Source of the DNA: Fluviicola sp.
Lineage (GTDB): Bacteria; Bacteroidota; Bacteroidia; Flavobacteriales_D; Crocinitomicaceae
DNA: 64,000 bases
NCBI RefSeq assembly: GCF_039596395.1
Contig: NZ_JBCNJT010000002.1
Coordinates: forward strand, 744,001 to 808,000
Reading direction: 5' to 3'
Shown here: positions 697 through 10,114 of the stretch, piece after piece
How positions within the stretch are numbered: position 1 is the stretch's first letter
Layout: every line of letters begins with the position of its first letter
Made by a program: the position numbers and the translations under genes
The notes under the pieces: generated by a model
Database searches by the model: none
What the model saw: the letters and a program-made list of their open reading frames with translations, nothing else
What the model was told of the DNA's origin: nothing

Positions 697-3294
697 TTAC
701 TTGGCGAGTTCTTCAACAATTGCGGATGTGCTATCTGGGATTGCTCCTTGTTCGCACGAATAAATCGTGGGGCGAATTTTTTCGCGGAATGCGGCATTTT
801 CCCGGCGTTTTTTCTGAACGGCGTAATTCGCTTTTTCTTTGAACAACCACTGTAATTCATCTTTCAGGCTCATGGCTTTTTCAACGCGGTGATCGTTCAG
901 GTGATTGATCCGTTTGTCGAATTCCTTCTCAGTGATTTCTTCCAGTGCAACGGGCTCAGTTTGCGTTTTTTGAGCTTTCAATTCATTGATCTGGTAATAG
1001 AAGAAGCCTTCTTCGTTCATTCCGATTATTGCAGCGTTGTAATTCATGTCGCCGTTCAGGTTGTAATTCAACTTCCCATCCGTGAAATCCAGGCGCTGGT
1101 AACTGTTGATCTCTTTGGAGAACAGGTACAGAAACAGTTTGCCGTATTGTTCCGCTTCCTTCACTTCTATGCTAATTGGTTTGTAGGTAATTTGAGCCGT
1201 TTTCCCGGTTGCGGGATCGGTAATAACGGTTGACTGACGATTGACCGTTGCTTCTCTGACGTAAGCATCGATATTGACAATGCTTCCCCCATTATGCATC
1301 TGGAATCCTGCCGTAACGCCCAGCTGTTTGTATACATTCCGCAAATTGAATCCGTACTCTTCATTCAAATTGGCAGATTCGCGCAGGCCTTTTCGCAACA
1401 CTTCTTTATTTCGTTCATCCTGCACTTCATGATCCCAGTGCCGTTCTCTACTCAGCGCAACCTGCAGGTTTTTCTTCCCGGTTTCACGAAGCGTTTTGAC
1501 CGCTTTTTCGTAAAATTCTTCCAGGTTCTTTTGATGTGCATCATTCATCCGGATCGCTCCTACTTTCTGATCCGCAAAGCGCTGGAATTCCGGGTAACCC
1601 ATCTTTACTACGCGCTGATCGAGTTTCCACAACGATTCGTCCAGGTTATTTGCATAGATATCAAATACCTTTTCATCACAGGTTTCATGAATGGCTTTCA
1701 TACGGTCTTCAAAATCCTGCGTTGCCAGATTCGTATGGTTGAATTTTTTGTTCCAGATGGCAAGAACTTTTGACGGCGGAATATGGTCAGTGACTGATTT
1801 CTGACCGGAACTTACCTGCACGCTAAACTTACCTGAATAAGGCGGTAAACAGTGTGATTGAGCCTTACAAACCTGGTAGGAAAATTTTCCGGAAATAGTG
1901 AATGTGCCCTTTTTTACCAGTTTCACTTGCTGTTTGAAAACAAGCCGATTGCTTTCGTAAAGTGCCATTTCACTGCAGAACTTCCGGACCTTGTATTTTT
2001 TTGCGCTTTCCGAATTCATTCCACCAGCATCAGGACTTAGATCCTCAACCGAACTTAAATCCTTCACTTCTCCGACAAACTCAAAATCCGGGGTTTTATT
2101 CAGCGTGAACCGGGTTGGTACGGTAAACGGTGAGATCGATTTGTTTAAAATCCCGATCATCCAGTTGTCTTCCAGGTTTACCGTTGCAACTATATTTACA
2201 ACATTGTTTTTCAGATTTTCCACGGAAAAATTCCAATGAACCTTATCCGTCGGGCTCTCAATTTGGGTCTGTTGTTTTACAGTACCTGAAATTATCTTTT
2301 CCTGATTTGAACTTCCTGCAATCGGAATTTCATCGATTCTTACGGAGTTATAAACAACTGGTTTTTGAGCATTCTCACTGCGGGCGATCGTATCTGAAAC
2401 AGCGGCGGTTTCCTCAAAACTCAAATACAAGCTATCGCGTCTGGTCCTTTCCTTAAACCACTTCAGTTCGTTCAATTTCGGTTCATAGCGCGGCGGGAAT
2501 AAGTCCATTTCCGACATGTCCTTCGGCTTGGGAAGGCGCTCCAGTTCTACCGGGTTCTGCCAATCGATTTTCCCATCTTTTCCCGGAACGCCGGTGAAGA
2601 GTTTCATGTCTTTTTTCAGTTCGCCGACCGGAACCTGGACGTATACACCTTTGTCTGTTAATTGCAGTTTTTTGCCTTCGGGTGTAAAAGCGTTCAGGCT
2701 GAACATGCCTTGCGTTTCCAGCAGGCGATCTCCCGATTTGGTACTCAATCCGGCTTTCACAATGTCAGATGCTTGTTGTGCTTCCTGCCACTGCACGATT
2801 GCTTCGCCCTTGTAAGCTTTTCCGTCGAGTAAGAATGATTCACCGGTTAAGCTCAGCAATACGCCGCTTTCAGACAAAAAAACATCCGATTTGCCGGTAA
2901 ACTGAAAATATTCCGGGTCGATGTTCTCAAAAGCCAGGTTTTTCTCCAGTTTTTCCAACATGGATTGCTCGATTTGTTCGGGTTCACTGTTCTTTTCGGC
3001 CCCACCTTTTTTCCATGTCATAGCAACATAAACCGCTGTAGCTAAAGCTCCGGCAATCACGATCGCAAGGCCGCTATTGATCAGTATTTTCTTCAGGTGG
3101 AACCACTTCCCGGATTCTTTTACCAGGGTGCGCAACGAATGCCGCCCGATCAGTTCACGGGTTAATTGGTGTAATTCAAATTCCTTTTGCAGTTCCGGAT
3201 TTTGGTTCAATTCCGTTTCAAAAGCTGCTTTTCCTTCTGCTGAAAGTTCGTTATTCAGATAACGCTCAATCAATTTGTTCCAGTTTGTTTCCAT
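697..3294 (-). CDS. large transmembrane anti-sigma-like protein with DsbD-N-like domain
   Basis: 865 aa. Residues 1-65 form a charged cytoplasmic part (ENxxLIERYLNNELS-like start) typical of Bacteroidota anti-sigma factors; one membrane helix spans about 70-93. The outside part has a beta-rich region (about 125-250) resembling domains common in Bacteroidota surface proteins, then residues about 350-497 closely resemble the N-terminal (alpha) domain of the thiol:disulfide interchange protein DsbD: W-N-F-S-V start, an NLEDNW segment, V-PT-RF, GEV, and YQVCKAQSHCLPP, with Cys476 and Cys482 five residues apart as in DsbD. Residues 500-865 are unassigned. The gene starts 3 bp after the sigma-factor stop, so the two are almost surely co-transcribed. 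The anti-sigma role is inferred from that position and topology; the redox-sensing idea is inference from the domain. Confidence 0.7.
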   Translation of the reverse strand: METNWNKLIERYLNNELSAEGKAAFETELNQNPELQKEFELHQLTRELIGRHSLRTLVKESGKWFHLKKILINSGLAIVIAGALATAVYVAMTWKKGGAEKNSEPEQIEQSMLEKLEKNLAFENIDPEYFQFTGKSDVFLSESGVLLSLTGESFLLDGKAYKGEAIVQWQEAQQASDIVKAGLSTKSGDRLLETQGMFSLNAFTPEGKKLQLTDKGVYVQVPVGELKKDMKLFTGVPGKDGKIDWQNPVELERLPKPKDMSEMDLFPPRYEPKLNELKWFKERTRRDSLYLSFEETAAVSDTIARSENAQKPVVYNSVRIDEIPIAGSSNQEKIISGTVKQQTQIESPTDKVHWNFSVENLKNNVVNIVATVNLEDNWMIGILNKSISPFTVPTRFTLNKTPDFEFVGEVKDLSSVEDLSPDAGGMNSESAKKYKVRKFCSEMALYESNRLVFKQQVKLVKKGTFTISGKFSYQVCKAQSHCLPPYSGKFSVQVSSGQKSVTDHIPPSKVLAIWNKKFNHTNLATQDFEDRMKAIHETCDEKVFDIYANNLDESLWKLDQRVVKMGYPEFQRFADQKVGAIRMNDAHQKNLEEFYEKAVKTLRETGKKNLQVALSRERHWDHEVQDERNKEVLRKGLRESANLNEEYGFNLRNVYKQLGVTAGFQMHNGGSIVNIDAYVREATVNRQSTVITDPATGKTAQITYKPISIEVKEAEQYGKLFLYLFSKEINSYQRLDFTDGKLNYNLNGDMNYNAAIIGMNEEGFFYYQINELKAQKTQTEPVALEEITEKEFDKRINHLNDHRVEKAMSLKDELQWLFKEKANYAVQKKRRENAAFREKIRPTIYSCEQGAIPDSTSAIVEELAK

Positions 3295-3297
3295 GGC

Positions 3298-3840
3298 TTA
3301 GAATTGATTGAGTTCGACATTCAGCTGAGCTTCCTGCACCAATTCCTTGGCTTTTTGGATGCAGCGGTATTTCTGGGCCTTCGCCACTTTATCATTCCGG
3401 AAACCGAGCTTTTTGGCAATATCTGTCATGTTCCAGCCCAAGCCGTAGAACAAATGCAGGAGTTCGCGGCATTGCTCCCCGATTTTCGTCAGGGCAGACT
3501 CAAGTTGCTTATACTGCAATTCCTTCTCCATCCAGGTCTCCGGTGTTTCTTCGGGATCCGTTTCCAGGCTTCCTGCGCCTTGTTTCTGATCTTTGCGGGA
3601 AGCATTGTACCACAGCAATTTACAGGTCTGTTTGATGAAATGAACCGGAGCCAATTGGAACTCAAAACCGGGATCGTTTTTCTTTCGCAGGTAAATGATC
3701 AGGGCTTCCTGGAAGAGGTCTTCTGCGGTCAGGCCGTCACAACCAAAGGTTCGAAGCAAGCGTTTGACCTCCGGAAAGTGCCTGTACAGCACAGCAAGCT
3801 CTTTTTTGATTTCCAAAGGATCGTATAGGCGTTTCTCCAT
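3298..3840 (-). CDS. RNA polymerase sigma-70 family (ECF-like) sigma factor
   Basis: 180 aa with a region 2-like stretch around residues 36-85 (LTAEDLFQEALIIYL, the DLxQE core of region 2, then FIKQTCKLLWYNASR) and a region 4 helix-turn-helix at about 118-165 (CRELLHLFYGLGWNMTDIAKKLGF, then a recognition helix). This is the sigma2/sigma4 layout without regions 1 or 3, the ECF type that redirects RNA polymerase to a stress or envelope regulon. It is the first gene of a two-gene unit with the transmembrane partner that follows 3 bp later. A weak -7-like TACCTTTC lies upstream. The regulon cannot be told from the sequence. Confidence 0.85.
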   Translation of the reverse strand: MEKRLYDPLEIKKELAVLYRHFPEVKRLLRTFGCDGLTAEDLFQEALIIYLRKKNDPGFEFQLAPVHFIKQTCKLLWYNASRKDQKQGAGSLETDPEETPETWMEKELQYKQLESALTKIGEQCRELLHLFYGLGWNMTDIAKKLGFRNDKVAKAQKYRCIQKAKELVQEAQLNVELNQF

Positions 3841-3902
3841 GTTGAATTTACCGGTTGTGTTCAGAAAACGGAAAGGTAAACATTTGACTGAAAATTATTT
3901 TT

Positions 3903-7514: not shown

Positions 7515-8888
7515 TTATAACGATTGCAGATACTTTAAAAGGTAGGCGCGCTGTTTCGCGGGAAGTTTCTTGTAGTTTTCCTTGCTCTTTTCAGCTTCTC
7601 CACCGTGCCATAAAATAGCTTCTTCTATGGACCGTGCTCTTCCGTCGTGGAGCAAATACGTATGACCGTTCACTAATGAGATCAACCCTAATCCCCAAAG
7701 CGGCTGTGTTCGCCACTCAGAACCGGAAGCCAGATGATCCGGAACATTGTCTGCCAGGCCAGGCCCCATATCGTGGAGCAGCAGGTCTGTATAAGGAGTT
7801 ATTTTTTGGTTTTTCAAAGGGGCAATGTCTCCGCCGAAACCGGTGGTGAAATTCATCTTATGACAGGAAACACATCCAAGCGATTTGAAGTACTGCGCAC
7901 CGAATTTTACTTCGCCCTGCGTTACATTTCTTCTTCTCGGAACCGCCAGCGTTTTTGCATAAAGAATCACCGCATTCAGATCGTTGTCTTCGATTTCCGG
8001 CGTTCCCCCATTAGGTAAACCGGCACAGGAAGGCTGATTGGCCGTATAATTCTCATTCGGGAAGTAAGTGCTGGTAATACCGATATCCCCGTTGAATGCT
8101 CCTGCTACCTGGTGTGCAATGCTTCCTACGTTCGCTTTCCATCCGAAGCGGCCGATAACCGGCATTCCGGATACGATATCCGTTACGTAATTCGCAACTC
8201 CTGAAATACCATCACCATTCGCGTCATTCGGATCTGCATTTGCCAAAATATCTGCTTCGGAAATGAGTTCCAAAAGCCCCAAACCAATCATTTGCTGTCC
8301 AACCCGCGGAGAAATCCCGGTTGTTCCCTGCATCGCTCCATAGCTTTGACCTGCAACCGTGTAAACCGGTTTCCTGAGCGAATAAGTGCTTCCGTCGGCA
8401 AAATAACCGGTTTCCTCTACATAGGTAATTCCCATGCTTCCTTCGGGTGTGATGGAATTGTGCGAGAAATCCTGTAATTGTCCGCCGTAAATGGCATCGG
8501 GGGAATTGTCAAAGTTTGCGCCCAGGCGGAAAAGCAAACCGGAATTTGACTGGGGAGCTCCTCTTCCGTCGCGGAAGTGACAAGCCGAACAGGATCTTGC
8601 ATTGAACAATGGCCCTAACCCGTCTCTGGCAGTTGTTGAAGAAGGTGCCTGCACCCAGCTTTGATTAAAAAACGAATTTCCTACATAGAACATCAGTGAC
8701 TGGGCCGAAGTGAGCCCGTTGATCTGGTAAGAGAAAGCATAGGATGTTTGATCTCCCGTGCTGCAATCCCCGGCCAGATTCACCAATGTTGAATCGTCGC
8801 TATACGCAGAAACAACAGTGGTTTCTTCCTTCTTACAGGAAAAAACCACGATTGATAAAACGATTCCGAGCAGGAATAACTGTTTCAT
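7515..8888 (-). CDS. di-heme c-type cytochrome lipoprotein, DUF1111 family
   Basis: 457 aa. The N-terminus is a lipoprotein signal (VLSIVVFSCKK, Cys at 18). Two CxxCH haem-binding motifs are visible: CSACH at about 100-104, followed by FRDGRG, and CVSCH at about 339-343. A C-terminal HDGRARSIEEAILWHGGEA segment resembles the MauG/di-haem peroxidase group, where it lies near the active site. This layout is that of the DUF1111 family (often called thiol oxidoreductase), a periplasmic redox protein. Its start codon overlaps the imelysin stop by one base (TAATG), so the two are translationally coupled; in Bacteroidota such pairs are linked to iron acquisition. Iron handling is inference. Confidence 0.88.
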   Translation of the reverse strand: MKQLFLLGIVLSIVVFSCKKEETTVVSAYSDDSTLVNLAGDCSTGDQTSYAFSYQINGLTSAQSLMFYVGNSFFNQSWVQAPSSTTARDGLGPLFNARSCSACHFRDGRGAPQSNSGLLFRLGANFDNSPDAIYGGQLQDFSHNSITPEGSMGITYVEETGYFADGSTYSLRKPVYTVAGQSYGAMQGTTGISPRVGQQMIGLGLLELISEADILANADPNDANGDGISGVANYVTDIVSGMPVIGRFGWKANVGSIAHQVAGAFNGDIGITSTYFPNENYTANQPSCAGLPNGGTPEIEDNDLNAVILYAKTLAVPRRRNVTQGEVKFGAQYFKSLGCVSCHKMNFTTGFGGDIAPLKNQKITPYTDLLLHDMGPGLADNVPDHLASGSEWRTQPLWGLGLISLVNGHTYLLHDGRARSIEEAILWHGGEAEKSKENYKKLPAKQRAYLLKYLQSL

Positions 8889-10066
8889 TAAAATGTTATT
8901 GAGAATACTGCAGCTGCAGCATCTAAATCTACTTGTTCACTTTGCAGTGAAGTCACTACATCCAATACTTTAGGACGCTCAGCCGGCAACACGATTGCCT
9001 GGTCGAACGGATGGTACATCACAGCGATGTATCCCATCGTAGCGGCAAAACGGTTAACCAATGCCGTGTTTTTTGCAGCATCGATCGTACCTACCAAATC
9101 TTCCAGAGAATATCCGCTGATGTTATTTCCGAACGGAGAAGTGTAGTTTCCTTTGTACAGGTTCTCAACTGCCAATGCATTCAGGTAAATATCCCGGTGT
9201 GTATTGTCTGAGAAACAAGAATGCTCATCTTCCTGGTTTGCATTTTCGTAAGCAACATAGATACGCTCACCAGCCAATTCGTCTCCAGCAAGTACACGCA
9301 TCGAGTTGAACATTTTACGCAAAGCTGTTTTGCTGTCCAATGCCTGGAAAGTATGGTAGTAGCTTCCCGGAATTGCAGGATCCCAAGCATCTTTCACCTG
9401 GTCCAAAGCAGAAACCAACAAGTCAACTACTACTTTCAAATAAGTTGCACGACGGCCTTCGTTATCAGCAGTGGAGCCTCCGATCACATAATCCTCGTAA
9501 GATCTTTGTCCGGCAGTAAGCGCACTTAAATCCTGTCCCCACAATAAGAATTCGATTGCGTGGTATCCACAGGAAATTTTTGTTTCACCACCGAATTCAT
9601 TCGCCTGAACGATTGTTGCCGCATCAATAGTCGGGTAATTAGCTACGTCATTGATGATTCCAGCATTTGGCTCACCCACTACATAATCCACGTAGTTCTC
9701 GTCCATCGGCCATGCATTGATCAAACCTTCCGGTCCGTCGTTGGTATTGTCAATCGGTCCGTCAACAAACCGGAAAACTTCTGTTAAACCGTAAATCTCA
9801 CGTGCATCCAGCCATGCCTGTTTAGCAGCATCCAGGTTTGCCTGAGAAGGGTTATCCGCCAAGGTGTGACATGCAGTTTGCAAGGTTACGGTTGCAGTAT
9901 ATGAATCCTTGTATACAGCGAACGCCATATCCGCATACGTTTTTTTGATGTCCGTTTTTTGCTGTGCATATTGATCCGTAGACGTTTCGTCTTCCTTTTT
10001 ATCTTTCTTACATGCAGTAAATGCTACTGAAGCAAGTACAAATAGCCCGATTGCGGTTTTTTTCAT
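8888..10066 (-). CDS. imelysin family lipoprotein (peptidase M75 type, EfeO-like)
   Basis: 392 aa. It starts with a lipoprotein signal (VLASVAFTACKKDKKEDE). The imelysin signature GYHAIEFLLWGQDLS is at about residues 163-178; the HxxE within it is the family's conserved metal-site motif. The long helices around it, with ARE-IYGLTEVFRF earlier, fit the two-helix-bundle imelysin fold. The family includes insulin-cleaving ICMP and iron-uptake partners such as EfeO; most members are iron-related periplasmic binders rather than proteases. An upstream extension to 10114 is possible but would run through a well-formed promoter (10084-10114), so 10066 was chosen. It is the first gene of a two-gene operon with the di-haem cytochrome. 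Confidence 0.88.
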   Translation of the reverse strand: MKKTAIGLFVLASVAFTACKKDKKEDETSTDQYAQQKTDIKKTYADMAFAVYKDSYTATVTLQTACHTLADNPSQANLDAAKQAWLDAREIYGLTEVFRFVDGPIDNTNDGPEGLINAWPMDENYVDYVVGEPNAGIINDVANYPTIDAATIVQANEFGGETKISCGYHAIEFLLWGQDLSALTAGQRSYEDYVIGGSTADNEGRRATYLKVVVDLLVSALDQVKDAWDPAIPGSYYHTFQALDSKTALRKMFNSMRVLAGDELAGERIYVAYENANQEDEHSCFSDNTHRDIYLNALAVENLYKGNYTSPFGNNISGYSLEDLVGTIDAAKNTALVNRFAATMGYIAVMYHPFDQAIVLPAERPKVLDVVTSLQSEQVDLDAAAAVFSITF

Positions 10067-10083
10067 GGTACTAAATTTGGTCA

Positions 10084-10114
10084 CAAAAGTAAGGGAGGTG
10101 TGCTTCCCGCTCAA
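10084..10114 (-). promoter_or_regulatory. promoter of the imelysin/cytochrome operon (-33 TTG, -7 TACTTTTG)
   Basis: On the minus strand TTG (10112-10114), 20 nt, then TACTTTTG (10084-10091), a good match to the Bacteroidota promoter. The -7 element ends 17 nt before the ATG. The spacer holds GGGA-N8-TCCC, a small inverted repeat that could be a regulator site. Confidence 0.65.

Follow-up and report, generated by a model that had tools for sequence, protein, structure and literature searches.

An ECF sigma factor gene of Fluviicola sp. paired with an anti-sigma-like membrane protein that carries a DsbD-alpha domain in an exchangeable slot

The window analysed here, a stretch of 64,000 nucleotides in its full length, comes from Fluviicola sp., a freshwater bacterium, and was found to carry an ECF sigma factor gene followed by the gene of a large anti-sigma-like membrane protein. 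On the basis of sequence homology, alignment and predicted fold, residues of about 345–495 of this 865-aa protein are a DsbD-alpha domain. There is good support for the architecture of the pair; binding to sigma, sensing of redox state and a regulon are what we infer for it. It is moderately probable that the large protein is the membrane-bound anti-sigma factor of this ECF sigma factor, with the periplasmic DsbD-alpha-like domain as the sensor module, and that the pair would be controlled by periplasmic redox state. The coordinates of the features are given in Table 1.

The first gene had been described in the initial annotation as an ECF-like sigma factor, which profile searches bear out, as its product scored 49.1 bits against TIGR02937 sigma70-ECF (curated cut-off of 42.9) and 25.7 against Pfam Sigma70_r2 (cut-off of 24). 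The gene of the large protein lies on the same strand, 3 bp downstream of the sigma ORF. Homologs were gathered from the order and the class with a profile of residues 1–295, yielding 85 full-length homologs in Bacteroidia. In this neighbourhood survey, 82 of them had a sigma gene directly upstream and the remaining three began no more than about 370 bases from the edge of a contig, which supports the functional pairing proposed for the window genes. Genome contigs were also scanned with the single window protein as query, which gave no match, and with a closer alignment, which gave matches mostly in Fluviicola and other Crocinitomicaceae.

Table 1. Features of the sigma/anti-sigma-like locus, with positions in the window
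Feature	Position	Strand	Basis
ECF sigma factor gene, 180 aa	3298..3840	-	TIGR02937 and Pfam Sigma70_r2, both above cut-off
Anti-sigma-like membrane protein, 865 aa, with DsbD-alpha module	697..3294	-	
Residues 1–65, predicted cytoplasmic anti-sigma domain	3100..3294	-	NCBIfam antisigma/zf-HC2 in relatives, helices in model; below curated cut-offs
Residues 70–93, single predicted membrane helix	3016..3087	-	Hydrophobic stretch; long helix 33–94 in model
Residues 127–250, conserved beta domain common to all family members	2545..2916	-	Alignment, model
Residues 345–495, DsbD-alpha-like domain in exchangeable slot	1810..2262	-	Homology to own DsbD, alignment, fold
Cys476 to Cys482 (CKAQSHC), DsbD-alpha-type redox pair	1849..1869	-	Alignment with real DsbD
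Residues 505–850, conserved C-terminal part, helical and beta domain, invariant-type Cys847	745..1782	-	C-core profile, model
Promoter-like element GTTTACCTTT-N11-ACAC, upstream of sigma gene	3857..3881	-	Exact window match, ortholog conservation

Three lines of evidence agree on the DsbD-alpha domain that had been claimed for the large protein: (i) residues 340–496 match the genome's own DsbD (a frame of 703 aa) with 36% identity and an E-value of 4e-17, (ii) the domain aligns through the Cys pair and the residues after it with the N-termini of over 20 real DsbD proteins of related genomes, and (iii) the predicted fold is that of DsbD alpha and not another one. The AlphaFold2 model of residues 340–500 has a pLDDT of 81, and all 18 PDB matches obtained with it at E ≤ 0.001 were DsbD alpha or the ScsB N-domain; when the full-length model was searched without isolating the domain, members of the DsbD/ScsB N-domain family took ranks 1–17. 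The Cys spacing given in the initial annotation was likewise correct, Cys476 and Cys482 forming a CxxxxxC motif which aligns with the real DsbD pair, and this spacing is also present in some real DsbD proteins. Pfam DsbD_N covers only residues 433–490 of the window protein, with an E-value of 0.0086 and 16.5 bits (gathering cut-off of 25), and an orthologue (L036) reaches 24.5 bits against the same cut-off. The identity of the domain is settled by the three lines above and not by the Pfam score, which is below threshold. The DsbD-type alignment, used as a sequence profile against PDB chains, gave no match at E ≤ 1.

Identity with full-length DsbD was considered and rejected, since no Pfam match to the DsbD membrane domain or to the C-terminal thioredoxin-like domain was found in the 865-aa protein, which has one predicted membrane helix. 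A free-standing DsbD-alpha-like protein of 150 aa with a Cys pair is encoded elsewhere in the same genome, directly before the genuine dsbD (L059:3148-3600, minus strand, contig C1).

In the full-length model, short helices are predicted to lead into one long helix spanning the membrane stretch; together with the hydrophobic residues at about 70–93, this prediction is in keeping with the single membrane helix noted initially. A profile of the C-terminal core matches every full-length homolog, and the FecR domain that marks FecR-type cell-surface signalling anti-sigma factors was not found in the protein by Pfam search. Its Cys residues are at positions 440, 476, 482, 539 and 847. Cys847 (window 754–756) is kept in 80 of 81 family members and Cys539 (window 1678–1680) in 56 of 85, in both cases whatever the slot content; these two residues perhaps form a structural disulfide or a second thiol site.

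The GTTTACCTTT-N11-ACAC block recurs upstream of the sigma genes in Fluviicola, within surroundings that do not align, and a related version, G(T/G)TTACCTTT with ACA(T/C) ~11 bases further on, was identified upstream of most family sigma genes across the class (by eye in the distant ones). Conservation of such an element upstream of sigma genes suggests autoregulation of sigma, and the window element is a probable autoregulatory ECF promoter. The same element also precedes a paralogous sigma gene, the product of which is ~55% identical to the window sigma factor (L060:2899-4431, at about 1947900-1949430 of contig C1 in the same genome).

When the full 30-base window promoter was searched with 3 mismatches allowed, no copy besides itself was found in its own genome. 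The shorter core has 5 exact sites in this genome and 39 exact matches in 14 genomes, compared with 10 for a reversed control. The 39 genus-wide matches include the family sigma genes and the paralogous sigma gene, and others precede three OmpA-family gene types, a transglutaminase-like gene, and lipoprotein-like and other exported-looking genes, several of the matched genes recurring in two to five genomes. These candidate targets, of one or other of the paralogous sigma factors, suggest a role in the envelope and not the control of redox enzymes.

The homologs have in common an N-terminal part ending near residue 295 and a C-terminal part beginning near residue 505, and the slot between them is variable. 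The slot holds cytochrome c in 21 of the 85 members, a DsbD-alpha-like domain in 12 (7 with both Cys), the two together in 3, TonB_C in 6, a CarboxypepD_reg-like domain in 4 and a PpiC-type PPIase in 2, with no recognised domain in the remaining 37. Cytochrome c and/or DsbD-alpha therefore account for 36 of the 48 recognised modules, and non-redox domains for 12. The cytochrome c and PPIase domains exceed the Pfam cut-offs in the members tested, the PpiC-type ones being those of L107:3040-5559 (plus strand) and L120:1055-3499 (minus strand). TonB_C, whether in the slot (L076, L079, L081, L085, L088 and L089) or at the C-terminus, is an unusual combination with an anti-sigma-like protein. The Cys pair is kept in 8 divergent DsbD-like copies and absent from 7 of the 15 DsbD-like slot domains. 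Slot domains are under purifying selection, with dN/dS of about 0.18 for one DsbD slot pair and about 0.12 for one cytochrome slot pair. An earlier notion that the slot takes redox modules only was withdrawn because of the TonB_C, PPIase and CarboxypepD_reg inserts.

For the window pair, the proposed redox control could work as follows. The cytoplasmic N-terminal domain would hold sigma at the membrane in an inactive state. Cys476 and Cys482 would receive electrons through the thiol-reducing pathway of the periplasm (DsbD/CcdA type) or lose them to oxidants there; depending on its redox state, the Cys pair would shift the periplasmic region to another conformation or make it more or less accessible to proteases; and sigma, once freed, would transcribe the operon that encodes it, probably together with a few envelope genes. 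Since the window DsbD-alpha domain has its Cys pair intact, what the protein reads is probably the thiol/disulfide state of the periplasm or the flow of thiol reductant. Thiol/disulfide sensing cannot hold for the family as a whole, as the DsbD domain is only one of several exchangeable modules. Counting against a redox reading are the Cys-less DsbD-like domains and the non-redox modules tallied above, the OmpA-family and transglutaminase-like genes of the candidate regulon, and a weak match of the window protein to the anti-sigma profile (E 0.035).

Several of these observations would be expected if the slot were a generic docking site, its modules binding differing envelope partners and the pair monitoring envelope assembly or stress rather than redox. 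We regard this explanation as possible, though on the unlikely side. It would accommodate the TonB_C, CarboxypepD_reg and PPIase inserts, the existence of Cys-less DsbD-like copies, the OmpA-family envelope proteins among the candidate targets, and the presence of TonB_C at the C-terminus of 14 of the 85 members (among them L035, L036, L098, L100, L119 and L124). However, cytochrome c and DsbD-alpha together make up three quarters of the recognised modules, most of these redox modules still have their Cys pair or CxxCH, and within the Fluviicola group the module alternates solely between cytochrome c and DsbD-alpha.

This alternation was followed among close relatives. The N-terminal parts of the DsbD and cytochrome versions in Fluviicola are 74–85% identical to the window protein, and the window locus has flanking genes in common with versions of both kinds, indicating orthologs which carry different modules. 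On a tree of the common parts, at least 9 changes are required for cytochrome and at least 4 for DsbD with Cys, counted on well-supported branches. Two members (L042 and L045) have a Cys-less DsbD-like domain together with a cytochrome, and an ancestor with both modules followed by alternative losses would be a simple reading of the pattern. A tree of the DsbD domains alone (139 columns, long branches) gave no decision between one capture and several. The same two members had suggested strict complementarity, with cytochrome c always accompanied by loss of the Cys pair; this was dropped, as L092 has both and several Cys-less copies are without cytochrome. One complete genome titled Glaciecola amylolytica (L141, CP034120.1) clusters with Fluviicola at the sigma/anti-sigma locus, and the species name on this accession is probably wrong.

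As DsbD-alpha is replaced by cytochrome c in sister species, the switch probably answers to envelope redox conditions, and the exchange suggests that redox or electron flow more generally may be what is read. Cytochrome c maturation requires both reductant and haem, and a link to it is attractive but speculative. A broader proposal, which we hold only tentatively, is that of a Bacteroidia-wide anti-sigma family with a plug-in periplasmic slot. In such a family, cytochrome c and DsbD-alpha would be equivalent readers of one pathway, namely periplasmic electron or thiol flow (for example the steps of cytochrome c maturation that supply reductant and attach haem), passing envelope redox on to ECF transcription, and close species would swap the haem or thiol reader with the rest of the circuit unchanged.

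The redox sites, intact in a DsbD-alpha-like fold, would also suit modules that function as electron carriers and are held at the membrane by the large protein, with a link to sigma that is of secondary importance or signals no more than that the protein is there. This appears improbable, as the anti-sigma-like N-terminus and the adjacency to sigma are also found in the 37 members with no recognised module, and separate DsbD-type and cytochrome c genes are present in each genome of the genus Fluviicola that was checked.

Other cytochrome-related genes were observed near the sigma loci. A gene of about 460–485 codons with two cytochrome c matches lies ~3–6 kb from the paralogous sigma gene in five Fluviicola genomes (G001:C1, G002:C309, G003:C1, G008:C24 and G013:C1), and a similar gene with two cytochrome c matches was found near the main pair in G005:C46. 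In the window itself, positions 7515–8888 (minus strand) encode a lipoprotein with two CxxCH motifs, which by eye resembles a di-haem oxidoreductase, and the adjoining gene at 8888–10114 (minus strand) encodes an imelysin-like protein, also recognised by eye.

The large protein is probably an anti-sigma factor, which would bind sigma. Of 52 family members, 35 matched NCBIfam 'antisigma' with their N-terminal 75 residues, at a best E-value of 2.4e-6, and 19 matched zf-HC2 (E-value of 0.21 for the window protein); none of these matches reaches the curated cut-off. The partner of the paralogous sigma factor in the same genome, a protein of 317 aa, shares only the N-terminus and the membrane part with the 865-aa protein; its remainder has a WG-repeat-like stretch. 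The anti-sigma-like partner named in the initial annotation is supported by homology, predicted fold and sigma adjacency. That it is instead a membrane protein co-transcribed with sigma for another reason would fit the lack of any profile match at a curated cut-off, yet is very improbable given that the adjacency holds across very divergent members of the class, that the paralogous partner has just these two parts in common with it, and that most members match anti-sigma profiles.

Among known systems, the window protein resembles the class I membrane anti-sigma factors of the RseA, RskA and RsiW type (PMC7406223) in its gene position directly after sigma, its short N-terminal helical domain, its one membrane helix and its extracytoplasmic sensor region, and differs from them in its weak N-terminal profile similarity and in its periplasmic region, which is large, made of two parts and interrupted by an exchangeable slot. 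The DsbD-alpha domain has the predicted fold, the Cys spacing of E. coli DsbD and the periplasmic location of nDsbD (PF11412; PDB 1L6P, 1JPE and 1VRS), but it is below threshold in Pfam, is fused to an anti-sigma-like protein and has a long unordered loop with the extra Cys440. Dma proteins are also from Bacteroidota and share the N-terminal anti-sigma domain, one membrane helix, a large extracytoplasmic part and an adjoining ECF gene, and have a disordered tether followed by a C-terminal outer-membrane beta-barrel (PMC13088901). Identity with Dma was rejected, as no barrel is predicted for the window protein, the C-terminal part of which is modelled as helical with a small beta domain. The proposed redox control of an ECF sigma factor recalls RsrA and ChrR (PMC7406223); however, these have a zinc-thiol site in the cytoplasm, whereas the window protein has a periplasmic DsbD-alpha module or, in orthologs, a cytochrome c module.

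In the open-access literature, apart from the 2021 ECF reclassification, we found no published anti-sigma factor that contains DsbD-alpha or cytochrome c, and none with a large periplasmic region in two parts and an exchangeable slot. In a coevolution study, 6% of Bacteroidetes ECFs were found to adjoin a recognised class I anti-sigma domain (PMC7406223), a figure that would fit with families such as that of the window pair being missed by profiles. The analysis also suggests what a large and so far uncharacterised family of Bacteroidia proteins is likely to do. The natural swap of a thiol and a haem module between syntenic orthologs provides a ready-made domain-exchange set, with which the question of the signal is directly testable. 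If the proposed redox control is true, envelope thiol or respiratory electron flow would be linked directly to transcription.
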